Source: Sulfuricurvum sp.
GTDB lineage: Bacteria; Campylobacterota; Campylobacteria; Campylobacterales; Sulfurimonadaceae
Assembly (NCBI GenBank): GCA_020721585.1
Contig: DYMK01000010.1
Coordinates: forward strand, 1-64,000
Length of the DNA stretch: 64,000 nucleotides
Direction: 5' to 3'
Shown here in pieces: positions 1 through 11,893 of this stretch. Within the stretch, counting starts at the first letter, position 1. Each line of letters starts with the position of its first letter. The translations under genes were made by a program, and so were the position numbers. The notes under the pieces were generated by a model. The model saw only the letters and a list, made by a program, of their open reading frames with translations. It had not been told where the DNA came from and did no database searches.

Positions 1-1228
1 TCCGTTTGAGCATATTATCCGCACTTTGATGACTTTTGTGCAATTCACTCATCCAACTACGCAATGAGCTAATAGGGCTTCTCTCTTGGGCGTAGGCTTG
101 AACAGTATTGATAAAATCTTCTATTGATACCTGTCCCTCTTGATTCAAATAATACGCTCCAAAATCGCATCGGATAGTTTTTTGGTCATTTTTAATCGTT
201 AATTCATCTTTGATAAACTTATCCCAACTTTGGAAATTACTGCTTTGGACATTGTGGAACATGAGACTTGATGGAGCTAAATCTTTGTTGATAGCTTTTG
301 CGTGTTTCTTGGTGGCACTACACAAAGCTTCTGCCAAATCGACCGCATAGTGAAAAGGGAATTTTTCATTACAGTACGCAATTCCTGCACAAGCGGTGAG
401 TTTTTCAAAACCAATCTCTTTTAACTCTTCTATTTTCTTAGTTTCTACCTCAAAGTTCTCTAAAAAGTTTTTTGTAAATTCGAGTGCGTCGTTAGCATTG
501 CAGACGACGGTCATATCATCGCCACCTAAGATAATTTTTCGTATATGCATTGTGTCGGTTTTTGCATTTTTGAAAGCATTTTGAGTAGCAACATTGAGTT
601 GGATTGAAAAGCTACTGAGCTTACCATGTTCAGCAAGTTTTGGCACAATAGCCCCCAATCCATTACCATCGGCGTGGATAATGGCGATTTTGCCTTTGCT
701 ATTAGCAAGAGGATCAATATTGACCCTGTTTTTAGAAAAATCTCTTTTTTGGGAGGATGATTTATCCAGCTTTTCTATATTTCCCTCTGGATCAAGTGCA
801 ATTTCATAAAGTGGTCGCGCTGTCTTTTTGGTCAGTTGGAGAATATTGATACTCATATCCAGTGGAATTGATGGTTTGTTTCGTTGGGTTTTGAGTCGTT
901 TTTCTAACTCTTTAATAGCTTTATCTTGAGTATCAAACTCTGGTTTTTCCATATCTACAACCGCTTGACTTATCGTAATCCCATACGCTTTTTGCATTAT
1001 CTTTTTTGGAAATTCTCTCACAACCTTTTCAAGCTTCTCTTTATCATCAAAAATCGCTTTGATATTGCCTGCGGCTTGCATTAAAATTTCATGCGGTTCA
1101 TACGCATCAATCATTGTATCAATGGATTTGACAATCTCACTTGCCCCCACTATCTCTTGAAGCTGATTGGTTTTAAAAATAAACTCTTGAATCCCTTGCA
1201 CCGATGCCCCGTATAAATAGTTGCCCAT
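1..1228 (-). CDS. Cas10/Cmr2-like GGDD polymerase-palm protein (partial, runs off left edge)
   Basis: The minus frame stays open from an ATG at 1228 to the window edge, giving 409 visible residues. A strong G-rich ribosome binding site lies just upstream. The N-terminus (NYLYGASVQGIQEFIF, then an IVGASEIVKS stretch) looks like the first palm-domain strand and helix of Cas10/Cmr2 (COG1353). A DGNG motif at residues 187-190 follows a hydrophobic strand (KIAIIHA), matching the usual ADGDNLG-type motif. A GGDD motif at 235-238 is the metal-binding nucleotidyl-cyclase signature of Cas10 palm 2. An LTACAGIAY strand and an AEALCSATKKHAK helix follow in the expected order. No HD nuclease domain precedes the palm. 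Known Cas10 proteins make cyclic oligoadenylates when the type III effector binds target RNA; whether this one does is inference. No CRISPR array or Csm/Cmr subunit is visible, but the operon would continue to the left, outside the window. Confidence 0.8.
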   Translation of the reverse strand, partial: MGNYLYGASVQGIQEFIFKTNQLQEIVGASEIVKSIDTMIDAYEPHEILMQAAGNIKAIFDDKEKLEKVVREFPKKIMQKAYGITISQAVVDMEKPEFDTQDKAIKELEKRLKTQRNKPSIPLDMSINILQLTKKTARPLYEIALDPEGNIEKLDKSSSQKRDFSKNRVNIDPLANSKGKIAIIHADGNGLGAIVPKLAEHGKLSSFSIQLNVATQNAFKNAKTDTMHIRKIILGGDDMTVVCNANDALEFTKNFLENFEVETKKIEELKEIGFEKLTACAGIAYCNEKFPFHYAVDLAEALCSATKKHAKAINKDLAPSSLMFHNVQSSNFQSWDKFIKDELTIKNDQKTIRCDFGAYYLNQEGQVSIEDFINTVQAYAQERSPISSLRSWMSELHKSHQSADNMLKR

Positions 1229-1269
1229 CTTTCCCCCCCACTGTTATGAATGGTGTCAAGTGTAGCACA

Positions 1270-1296
1270 CTATCGTGACAAAATAAGTCACGATAG
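1270..1296. promoter_or_regulatory. Perfect 10-bp inverted repeat in the divergent Cas10-like/TM2 gap
   Basis: CTATCGTGAC and its exact reverse complement are separated by seven A/T-rich bases. There is no T-run on either side, so it is not an ordinary terminator. It lies about 40 bases upstream of the Cas10-like start and 100 bases upstream of the TM2 gene, a suitable place for a dimeric repressor. The operator role is inference. Confidence 0.45.
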
Positions 1297-1395
1297 GAGT
1301 CTCTTTATCGCTTCGTAAAAAAAAGGTTTTCTTGACACCCTTTGTCATGATGATTGGTTACACTCTGCTTACTATATCTTAAGGAGAATATCACC

Positions 1396-1731
1396 ATGAA
1401 CGAACAAGCGATTAAAGGTGAACACGAAAAATATTGCAGTGAGTGCGGGGCGTTGATTAATGCCAAAGCCGAAATTTGTCCTCAATGTGGAGTACGACAA
1501 ATGAATACCCAAACGGTTTCGTCCGAAAAATCACGTATTTCCGCTGCGTTATTCGCGTTTTTTCTCGGGGGGTTTGGTGCGCACAAATTTTATTTGGGTC
1601 AAACAGGTCAGGGGATTATTTATCTTCTCTTTTTTTGGACGCTTATCCCTGCACTTGTCGCGTTTGTGGAGTTTATCCTCTTGCTTTCGATGAGTGATGA
1701 GAAGTTTAACCAAAAGTATGGCATCCGTTAA
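1396..1731 (+). CDS. Zinc-ribbon TM2-domain membrane protein
   Basis: A protein of 111 residues. The N-terminus has two CxxC pairs (CSEC and CPQC, residues about 14-30) forming a small zinc ribbon. A TM2 domain follows: a GGFGAHKFYLGQ segment between residues 55 and 75, then two hydrophobic helices. TM2 proteins are small inner-membrane proteins of unknown biochemical role. I chose the ATG at 1396 because AAGGAG sits nine bases upstream and the zinc ribbon starts soon after; an upstream in-frame ATG at 1354 has no such site. A TTGACA at 1332 with a poorly spaced TACACT at 1359 may form its promoter. The gene stands alone, divergent from the Cas10-like gene. Confidence 0.85.
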   Translation: MNEQAIKGEHEKYCSECGALINAKAEICPQCGVRQMNTQTVSSEKSRISAALFAFFLGGFGAHKFYLGQTGQGIIYLLFFWTLIPALVAFVEFILLLSMSDEKFNQKYGIR

Positions 1732-1864: not shown

Positions 1865-1941
1865 TGGCGCAGCCAACGAGACTCGAACTCGCGACCTCCT
1901 GCGTGACAGGCAGGCATTCTAACCAACTGAACTATGGCTGC
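1865..1941 (-). tRNA. tRNA-Asp (GTC), copy 1
   Basis: A 77-nt cloverleaf with CCA encoded. Acceptor GCAGCCA pairs fully with TGGCTGC. The anticodon stem CCTGC/GCAGG encloses the loop CTGTCAC, giving anticodon GTC. Last gene of the minus-strand tRNA cluster; downstream the transcript enters several T-tracts without a clear hairpin. Confidence 0.96.
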
Positions 1942-1949
1942 ATTAACAA

Positions 1950-2025
1950 TGGTGGGAATTACAAGACTCGAACTTGTGACATCTACCTTGTAAGGGTAGC
2001 GCTCTACCAACTGAGCTAAACTCCC
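1950..2025 (-). tRNA. tRNA-Val (TAC), copy 1
   Basis: A 76-nt cloverleaf with CCA encoded. Acceptor GGGAGTT/AATTCCC. Anticodon stem CTACC/GGTAG with loop CTTACAA gives anticodon TAC. Separated from tRNA-Asp by eight bases. Confidence 0.96.
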
Positions 2026-2051
2026 GATTCAAAATCGAAATCAAAATAACA

Positions 2052-2128
2052 TGGCGCGGCCAACGAGACTCGAACTCGCGACCTCCTGCGTGACAGGCAG
2101 GCATTCTAACCAACTGAACTATGGCTGC
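2052..2128 (-). tRNA. tRNA-Asp (GTC), copy 2, with an acceptor-stem mismatch
   Basis: Identical to the copy at 1865 except that the 3' acceptor strand reads TGGCCGC instead of TGGCTGC. Position 3 of the 5' strand (A) therefore faces C rather than U. Anticodon GTC and encoded CCA are intact. It may still be charged, or may be drifting now that an intact copy is next to it. Confidence 0.93.
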
Positions 2129-2136
2129 ATTAACAA

Positions 2137-2212
2137 TGGTGGGAATTACAAGACTCGAACTTGTGACATCTACCTTGTAAGGGTAGCGCTCTACCAACTG
2201 AGCTAAACTCCC
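2137..2212 (-). tRNA. tRNA-Val (TAC), copy 2
   Basis: Same 76-nt sequence as the copy at 1950, with encoded CCA and anticodon TAC. Confidence 0.96.
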
Positions 2213-2232
2213 GAAAAATATCAAAAAACAAA

Positions 2233-2308
2233 TGGCGACCCCTAAAGGATTTGAACCTCTGTTCCTACCATGAAGTGATAGTGTCCTTGGCCACTAGACG
2301 AAAAGGTC
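2233..2308 (-). tRNA. tRNA-Glu (TTC)
   Basis: A 76-nt cloverleaf with CCA encoded. Acceptor GACCTTT/AGGGGTC with two G-U pairs. Anticodon stem CTATC/GGTAG and loop ACTTCAT give anticodon TTC. Confidence 0.95.
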
Positions 2309-2323
2309 ATAAACCTACAATCA

Positions 2324-2399
2324 TGGTGTCCCGTGATGGACTCGAACCATCGACCCCTTCATTAAAAGTGAAATGCTCTACCGACTGAGCTAACGGGAC
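2324..2399 (-). tRNA. tRNA-Lys (TTT)
   Basis: A 76-nt cloverleaf with CCA encoded. Acceptor GTCCCGT/ACGGGAC. Anticodon loop CTTTTAA gives anticodon TTT. First gene of the cluster, about 40 bases downstream of the consensus promoter. Confidence 0.96.
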
Positions 2400-6563: not shown

Positions 6564-9356
<2,793 letters not shown>

Positions 9357-9363
9357 TTATCGT

Positions 9364-9487
9364 CGTCATTCCCGCGAAGGGGGGAATCTAGCTCTTTGTA
9401 ATGTAAAGAATCTTGAATCACGTTCAAGGGTGGCGATATAAACCAATAAAAATATAAGCTGGATTCCCGTTTCCACGGGGATGACGG
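9364..9487. repeat. Dispersed palindromic repeat, family A, copy 1 (two-armed form)
   Basis: GTCATTCCCGCGAAGG leads into GGGAATCTAGC. About 65 bases later the reversed arm GCTGGATTCCCG leads into CACGGGGATGAC, so the whole element is bounded by inverted arms and could fold as one long hairpin. The same core occurs at 21379 and 24892. It fills the guaB-metY gap and may form the end of the guaB transcript. Confidence 0.8.
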
Positions 9488-9503
9488 TCAATAAAGGAAT
9501 AGT

Positions 9504-10775
9504 ATGCAATTACAAACACAAGCGTTACACGCAGGATACGATAAAGATACGCAACGAACCATGGCAGTACCGATGTACATGAGTACCGCTTTTGATTTTG
9601 GGAGTACTGATTTTGCCGCGAGCAGTTTTAATCTGCAACAAGGAACCGATAATGTCTATACCCGAGTTGGAAATCCTACCACCGCCGTTTTGGAAAAACG
9701 ATTCGCCGTTTTAGAGGGGGGAAGTGGTGCGTTGGCGGTGAGCAGTGGGATGAGTGCGATCTTTTACAGCATCCTCAATGTTGCGCAAGCGGGAGATAAT
9801 ATCATCGTGGCGAACCAACTTTACGGCGGAACGGTGACACTTTTTTCACAAACACTCAAACGATTAGGGATTGAAGCGCGGTTTTTTGATATTCATTCGC
9901 CTGATGCGATTGAAGCATTAGTGGATGAGAAAACCCGATGTTTTTTTTTCGAGAGTATCACCAATCCCAGTATCGATGTTCCTGATTTTGACGCATTAAT
10001 TGCTATTGCAAACACACATAATATCCTCACGATTGTGGATAACACCGTCGCAACGCCTATGTTGTGTCAGCCGTTGTTATTAGGGGTGGATGTTGTGGTG
10101 CACAGTGCGAGTAAATACACGACAGGGCAGGGGCTTGCTATTGGCGGATTGATTGTTGAGCGACAAAACTTAGCGGAAAAAATCAAAGGAAACGTCCGTT
10201 ATCCCGATTTTAATACCCCTGAAGTGAGCTATCACGGATTGGTGTTTGCCGATTCAGTCGTGAGCGGTATTTTATTTACCTTTAGAGCCAGAATGGTTTT
10301 GATGCGTGATACGGGAGCGGTATTAAGTCCGTTTAATGCGTGGTTATTTATCCAAGGGGTAGAGACGTTGTCCCTACGGATGAAACAACACTCTAAGAGT
10401 GCGTTACAAATTGCGCAGTGGCTAGAGAAACACCCTCGTGTCAAAAAAGTGAACTATCCACTCCTAGAGAGTGATAAAAGCTACGCTAATGCCCAAAAAT
10501 ACCTTACCAAAGGCTCGAGTGGATTGCTCAGTTTTGAGGTAGAAGACTTTGAAACAGCGAAAAAAGTCTTAGATCGTGTCGAGATTTTCTCAATTGTCGC
10601 TAATATCGGAGATAGTAAGTCGATTATCAATCACTCTGCCTCGACAACGCATCAGCAACTTAGCCCTGAAGAGCTGAAAAAAGCAGGGGTAAGCTCAGGA
10701 TTGATCCGTCTTAGTGTCGGCTTGGAAGATAGTGATGATTTGATCGCTGATTTAAAAGCCTCACTTGAAGCGTAA
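9504..10775 (+). CDS. metY: O-acetylhomoserine sulfhydrylase (Cys/Met metabolism PLP enzyme)
   Basis: A protein of 423 residues, the length typical of MetY rather than the shorter MetB/MetC. PLP-family features are visible: YTRVGNPT near residue 52, SSGMSAI near 80, and the cofactor lysine in HSASKYTTGQG near residue 205. The expected reaction joins O-acetylhomoserine with sulfide to give homocysteine. metX, which makes O-acetylhomoserine, starts eight bases after this gene and supports the assignment. A cystathionine gamma-synthase activity cannot be excluded from sequence alone. Confidence 0.92.
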   Translation: MQLQTQALHAGYDKDTQRTMAVPMYMSTAFDFGSTDFAASSFNLQQGTDNVYTRVGNPTTAVLEKRFAVLEGGSGALAVSSGMSAIFYSILNVAQAGDNIIVANQLYGGTVTLFSQTLKRLGIEARFFDIHSPDAIEALVDEKTRCFFFESITNPSIDVPDFDALIAIANTHNILTIVDNTVATPMLCQPLLLGVDVVVHSASKYTTGQGLAIGGLIVERQNLAEKIKGNVRYPDFNTPEVSYHGLVFADSVVSGILFTFRARMVLMRDTGAVLSPFNAWLFIQGVETLSLRMKQHSKSALQIAQWLEKHPRVKKVNYPLLESDKSYANAQKYLTKGSSGLLSFEVEDFETAKKVLDRVEIFSIVANIGDSKSIINHSASTTHQQLSPEELKKAGVSSGLIRLSVGLEDSDDLIADLKASLEA

Positions 10776-10783
10776 AGGGCAGT

Positions 10784-11893
10784 ATGTTACATCTTCAAAT
10801 ACACAGTGAACATTTTACCAATCCTCTCTATCTGGAGAGTGGACGAATTTTGGAACCCTACGACATCATGTATGAAACGTATGGGGTTTTGAATGAAGCC
10901 AAAGATAATGTCATTGTGATTTGTCATGCCCTTACGGGGTCTCATCATGCGGCAGGGACGTATGAGGGGGACAATAAAGCAGGTTGGTGGGATGGACTCA
11001 TAGGTCAGGGGAAAGCGGTCGATACCGATCATTTTTTCGTGATCTGTACCAATGTGATTGGAAGTTGTTTTGGCTCAACAGGACCCATGTCTCCCCGTTA
11101 TCCCTATACTGAACCCTATCGGTATAAATTTCCCGTAGTGACCATTTTGGATATGGTCAAAGCGCAGCGCATTTTATTTGATCGTTTGGGGATTCATAGT
11201 GTCCATGCCATTATTGGGGGATCGATGGGGGGGATGCAAGCGTTGGCGTTTGGGGTCTTTTTTCCCAATTTTGCCAAAAATATTATTGCGATGGCAACCA
11301 CCTACGCGACCCAACCGTGGGCAATCGCGTTTAACAAAGTGGCGCAAGAGGCAATTTTAAAAGATCCTGAATTTAAAAATGGGTATTACGACCCCAAAAT
11401 CATCCGTGAAACGGGATTAAGTGGGATGGCGATTGGTCGTATGGCGGGGCATATTAGCTTTTTGTCCCCCCAGTCGATGGATCGAAAATTTGGGCGTGAG
11501 TATAAACGCAATGATGGATTGTTTGAATTGTTTGGAAAATTTCAAGTGGAATCCTACTTGGAGTACAATGGGTACAACTTTACCAAATGGTTCGATCCAT
11601 TAAGTTATCTCTACATCACCAAAGCGATTAATATTTATGACCTTTCACGAGGATTTGATTCGCTTGAAGAGGCATTGCATCGGGTGCGTGCCAACCTTTA
11701 TTTGATCAGTTTTGAGAGTGATTTACTGTTTGTCCCCCAAGAGATGGAGATGATTGCCTCTACCTTGGAATCGATAGGAAAAGAGAATGTGACCTATATC
11801 CCTATCCCCAGTGATTATGGTCATGATGCGTTTTTGGTCGAAATTGATAAAATTGAACACTACGTAAAGGATGCGTTATGGAAGAAACCGTAA
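10784..11893 (+). CDS. metX: Homoserine O-acetyltransferase
   Basis: A protein of 369 residues with the alpha/beta-hydrolase fold of MetX. HALTGSHHAAG near residue 47 forms the oxyanion region, the nucleophile elbow GGSMGGMQ is near residue 145, and the acid and base appear as SDLLFVP near 312 and YGHDAFL near 345. It acetylates homoserine, feeding metY just upstream. Its last 16 bases overlap xseB. Some enzymes of this family use succinyl-CoA; the neighbouring metY makes acetyl more likely. Confidence 0.93.
   Translation: MLHLQIHSEHFTNPLYLESGRILEPYDIMYETYGVLNEAKDNVIVICHALTGSHHAAGTYEGDNKAGWWDGLIGQGKAVDTDHFFVICTNVIGSCFGSTGPMSPRYPYTEPYRYKFPVVTILDMVKAQRILFDRLGIHSVHAIIGGSMGGMQALAFGVFFPNFAKNIIAMATTYATQPWAIAFNKVAQEAILKDPEFKNGYYDPKIIRETGLSGMAIGRMAGHISFLSPQSMDRKFGREYKRNDGLFELFGKFQVESYLEYNGYNFTKWFDPLSYLYITKAINIYDLSRGFDSLEEALHRVRANLYLISFESDLLFVPQEMEMIASTLESIGKENVTYIPIPSDYGHDAFLVEIDKIEHYVKDALWKKP

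Follow-up and report, generated by a model that had tools for sequence, protein, structure and literature searches.

The cas10d gene at the contig end

The window, a stretch of 64,000 nucleotides from Sulfuricurvum sp., begins with the cas10 gene of type III-D (cas10d; 2..1228, minus strand), which encodes the N-terminal 409 of approximately 460 residues, the 3′ end being lost at the contig end. The open frame begins with an ATG at position 1228 on the minus strand, comprises 409 codons and contains no stop before the first base of the window. This base is also base 1 of the 67,528-base contig C14 of the window's genome (G000; 112 contigs, 2.29 Mb in total). What interrupts the frame is therefore a break in the assembly, beyond the mere border of the window. 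The complete genes of relatives mostly encode 447–489 amino acids, which implies that approximately 55 C-terminal residues are missing from the window Cas10. In the alignment, the start codon coincides with the start of the relatives' genes, and the protein opens directly with palm 1 (YLYGASVQGIQEFIF), a start shared by all relatives. The absence of an N-terminal HD nuclease, already stated in the original prediction, is therefore real and not an effect of truncation.

The DGNG motif (residues 187–190; 659..670, minus strand) is invariant in the alignment of 16 sequences and precedes the GGDD motif (residues 235–238; 515..526, minus strand), the palm-2 catalytic site, which was located by alignment and lies within the Pfam Cas10-Cmr2_palm2 match over residues 181–310. 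The predicted order of the two motifs thus holds and the palm-2 core is intact. Both D187–G190 and G236–D238 are invariant among the aligned relatives (n = 16). Nearly all related loci have GGDD, with DGDD in its place in one aligned relative, locus L004. A palm domain with an intact GGDD is what is expected of type III systems that signal through cyclic oligoadenylates (cOA).

The region upstream of cas10d (1229..1395) is without cas6, unlike in most relatives, where this gene lies immediately upstream, and no sigma-70-like promoter match was found in this interval. It is followed by a divergent neighbour that lies outside the system and encodes a TM2-domain protein (1396..1731, plus strand; Pfam TM2, 6.5e-19), and by six tRNA genes (Asp, Val, Asp, Val, Glu, Lys; 1865..2399, minus strand), whose cluster marks the conserved right-hand boundary of the insertion site. 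The six-tRNA block adjoins cinA in relatives of the genus as well.

Assignment to the III-D branch

The window Cas10 matches the Pfam Cas10-Cmr2_palm2 model at 1e-14, above the model cut-off, and the PADLOC Cas10d model at E = 2.7e-155 over residues 3–409, far above the III-A/B models, so the match is not due to chance. The NCBIfam Cmr2 and Csm1 models give weak matches only, and their equivalog cut-offs are not reached. Among solved structures, the best match by sequence is the Cas10 from the III-Dv complex of Synechocystis (PDB: 8s9t, E = 5e-26), with 3.5e-50 in a profile comparison. The AlphaFold model is of moderate quality (pLDDT 76, pTM 0.57) and has 8s9u as its top Foldseek match (8.9e-23), the listed structure matches being Cas10 proteins; as the model is moderate and the TM-scores are low, the fold match serves as supporting evidence only. 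Taken together with the 409-residue frame, the Pfam and PADLOC results uphold the original prediction of a Cas10/Cmr2-like GGDD protein cut by the window edge, and the profile searches and the structure prediction, the kinds of check that it proposed, both point to Cas10 (PADLOC Cas10d; Foldseek 8s9u). Judged from its sequence, the window gene is the Cas10 of the III-D branch, an ordinary example with nothing unusual about it.

Other palm-2 matches in the genome lie on contigs C30, C98, C90, C58 and C21; they cover the later part of the model only, most of them fall under the cut-off, and their sequences are likely those of GGDEF proteins.

Operons of relatives and the assembly gap

A scan of 84,980 species genomes yielded 20 loci related to the window gene, mostly from Sulfurimonas, Sulfurovum and Helicobacter, with one from Campylobacter and two from Bacteroidota (36–38% identity). 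Most of the relatives within the Campylobacterota are 43–67% identical to the window Cas10, and in L011, L015 and L021 the cas10d frame is interrupted. A complete set of genes is encoded in G055, whose genome is in two contigs and belongs to the same order as the window's genome, with a cas10d 65% identical to the window Cas10. Its co-directional locus comprises cas6, cas10d, cas7, csx10, a double cas7, csx19 and a TIGR03986 RAMP, and continues with CARF-TM, CARF-HEPN, the csx20 ring nuclease and a WYL regulator; for Csx20, ring nuclease activity on cA4 is proven (PMC12409355). CRISPR arrays of one repeat (GTTTCAATCCCCTTATAATCGGGTCAGTATGTAAT) lie on both sides, and cas1/cas2 are present, with cas1 broken by an IS. 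The interrupting element is an IS21-like istA/istB pair (L024 3272–6263).

The downstream genes of the 20 loci were searched with the G055 genes as queries. As far as the contigs reach, the G055 gene order around cas10d is kept in all 20 fetched relatives, each of which has cas7 downstream of cas10d, and csx10, the double cas7, csx19 and the TIGR03986 RAMP are mostly present where the contigs extend. A few operons (L003, L005, L013 and L015) have deletions or insertions; csx10 is found wherever the contig is long enough, except in L005 and L015, which have deletions. The operons of G055 and the other relatives place the window gene in a standard III-D operon of the phylum.

Several of these loci contain additional genes. 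A RhuM-Fic fusion gene (Pfam RhuM, Fic) is located between the double cas7 and csx19 in two different Sulfurimonas III-D operons (L009 14450–15469 and L016 8167–9144), and reverse transcriptase genes lie downstream of the III-D operon in L020 (16551–18758) and L004 (18965–20280); in the one that comes from the genome labelled C. jejuni, the reverse transcriptase is fused to Cas1. In L003, csx10 is cut at residue 241 and followed by a MuA-like transposase and a repressor (6892–10840), a probable Mu-like insertion in the III-D operon.

The original prediction called type III systems uncommon in this group of organisms. This stands for the closer surroundings, with cas10d present in one of 59 other relatives searched and in none of 36 genomes of the same genus, but not for the wider group, since type III-D cas10d recurs in Sulfurimonas, Sulfurovum, Helicobacter and Campylobacter. 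The III-D locus of the window, patchy in its distribution and situated at a site flanked by tRNA genes, is thus an addition to a genus whose 36 other sampled genomes lack it. Literature searches on III-D in Sulfurimonas or Campylobacterota returned nothing useful.

Extension to the left, as the original prediction had proposed, ends at once, as C14 ends at window base 1 and the remainder of the operon is missing from the assembly. Targeted searches of the window's genome did not find csx10, the TIGR03986 RAMP or the III-D cas7 in the assembly, while the same searches detect them in G055; the expected position of csx10 lies beyond the end of C14. However, another, small contig of the genome, C81, begins at positions 2–160 with the C-terminal 52 residues of a CARF-HEPN protein (PDLC01828, 1.4e-12) with an intact RxxxxH motif (RNNLAH), followed by genes for a 155-aa protein, lemA, a 321-aa protein, yigZ and type I restriction genes. 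The lemA–321-aa–yigZ group adjoins the tRNA/cinA/ileS block (window 1865 onward) in nine of the ten genus relatives checked, and the tenth has kept yigZ beside this block. This synteny makes it most likely that a single gap separates C14:1 from C81:1. The orientation agrees: cas10d leaves C14 in the direction of C81, and the CARF-HEPN gene, read the same way, terminates on C81; no end overlap between the two contigs was found, so that the join is drawn from synteny alone. On this basis, C14 and C81 probably flank a single gap holding the III-D operon, in which the TIGR03986 RAMP is also expected; judged from G055, the gap should span approximately 8–10 kb. The CARF effector of the locus is thus seen in its C-terminal 52 residues and placed in the same locus by synteny.

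No CRISPR array is present in the window, no array with the G055 repeat was found in the window's genome, and cas1 was not found in its assembly. A type I-B locus on contig C58 (L025, 3–10623) comprises cas6b, cas8b, cas7, cas5, cas3 and cas4, with a PtuA/PtuB (Septu-like) pair between cas8b and cas7 and a RelE-like pair between cas5 and cas3. Given the missing upstream cas6 and the lack of cas1 in the assembly, the crRNAs may depend on this locus; a III-D system that no longer possesses a Cas6 of its own, and perhaps no array either, and relies on I-B crRNAs is a tentative reading, held to be rather unlikely. Contig C58 also bears cmr1 and the beginning of a cmr2 without an HD domain, which the contig end truncates. 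This Cmr1/Cmr2 fragment at the left end was considered as the continuation of the window gene and rejected, since the two genes leave their respective contigs in the same orientation; it is a separate type III-B piece joined to the I-B locus.

Function and comparison with known systems

The window gene very probably codes for Cas10, the large subunit of a type III-D effector complex that drives cyclic oligoadenylate signalling; the gene content of the gap, the activity and the cOA species are inferred. In such a system, the crRNA-guided complex would bind a foreign transcript, upon which the GGDD palm domain would polymerise ATP into cyclic oligoadenylates, and these would activate the CARF-HEPN (Csx1/Csm6-like) RNase, whose gene lies towards the opposite end of the locus. 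Cleavage of the target RNA would fall to the Cas7 subunits, while single-stranded DNA cutting by Cas10 would not be expected, as the HD nuclease is absent. In the Synechocystis III-Dv system, the Cas10 with its GGDD synthesises cOA in response to target RNA and so activates Csx1; mutation of the palm catalytic residues abolishes cOA synthesis and Csx1 activation (PMC11026444). With the motifs intact and a CARF-HEPN end at the matching contig edge, a III-Dv-like mechanism is the best explanation. Most III-D Cas10 proteins are without an HD domain (PMC11026444), and its absence is therefore no special feature of the window Cas10.

Three other readings have to be weighed. An ordinary diguanylate cyclase (GGDEF), which the original prediction named as an outcome that would speak against Cas10, has a GG[D/E]-type palm motif in common with the window protein; however, Pfam GGDEF (PF00990) gives no match at E ≤ 1 against 1e-14 for Cas10 palm 2, and the listed structure matches are Cas10 proteins, so this identity is rejected and its probability is practically nil. 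The original prediction also offered a standalone Cas10-like polymerase. Such a protein, of the mCpol type, or a type III-derived defence unit devoid of effector subunits would be in line with the window's assembly, in which no effector subunit genes were found. Their absence is accounted for by the contig edge, the close relatives (57–67% identity) all lie within III-D operons, as do, to the extent covered by their contigs, the relatives at large (20 of 20), and the CARF-HEPN end lies at the matching contig edge on C81; the standalone reading is thus not sustained and is highly improbable.

Finally, cas10d could be a decayed remnant left after loss of the remaining III-D operon, which would fit the assembly's lack of downstream genes and of a matching array as well as the missing upstream cas6. 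Yet the open frame continues unbroken up to the final base and keeps every catalytic motif, and the alignment with relatives continues to the edge, which argues that the break is not a biological junction; moreover, the CARF-HEPN end at C81:2 would have to have survived too. Such decay is accordingly considered very unlikely. The signalling subunit of a type III unit suggested in the original prediction is retained and sharpened to a type III-D Cas10. A seemingly odd nuclease-less Cas10 is thereby settled as a standard III-D subunit, and the place of its missing partners is indicated.

Among known systems, the window gene is compared most directly with the III-D loci of G055, Sulfurimonas, Sulfurovum, Helicobacter and Campylobacter, with which it shares the HD-less Cas10, the GGDD and the start. 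In these loci the downstream operon is seen, whereas in the window's genome it is lost in the assembly gap, and the cas6 directly upstream is wanting in the window copy. The Synechocystis PCC6803 III-Dv system (PDB: 8s9t; PMC11026444) likewise has a Cas10 without a working HD domain and with the GGDD present, and the relatives of the window gene resemble it in their double cas7, csx19 and a RAMP like the insertion-containing cas7 (TIGR03986). However, III-Dv has Cas7, Cas5 and Cas11 fused in one protein, while the relatives have separate cas7 and csx10 (Cas5) genes. The type III-D SsoCsm complex (PDB: 8bmw) carries the same subtype name and has a palm 2 related to that of the window protein (profile 6.8e-6), but its Cas10 comprises 829 residues and is much more distant from the window Cas10.
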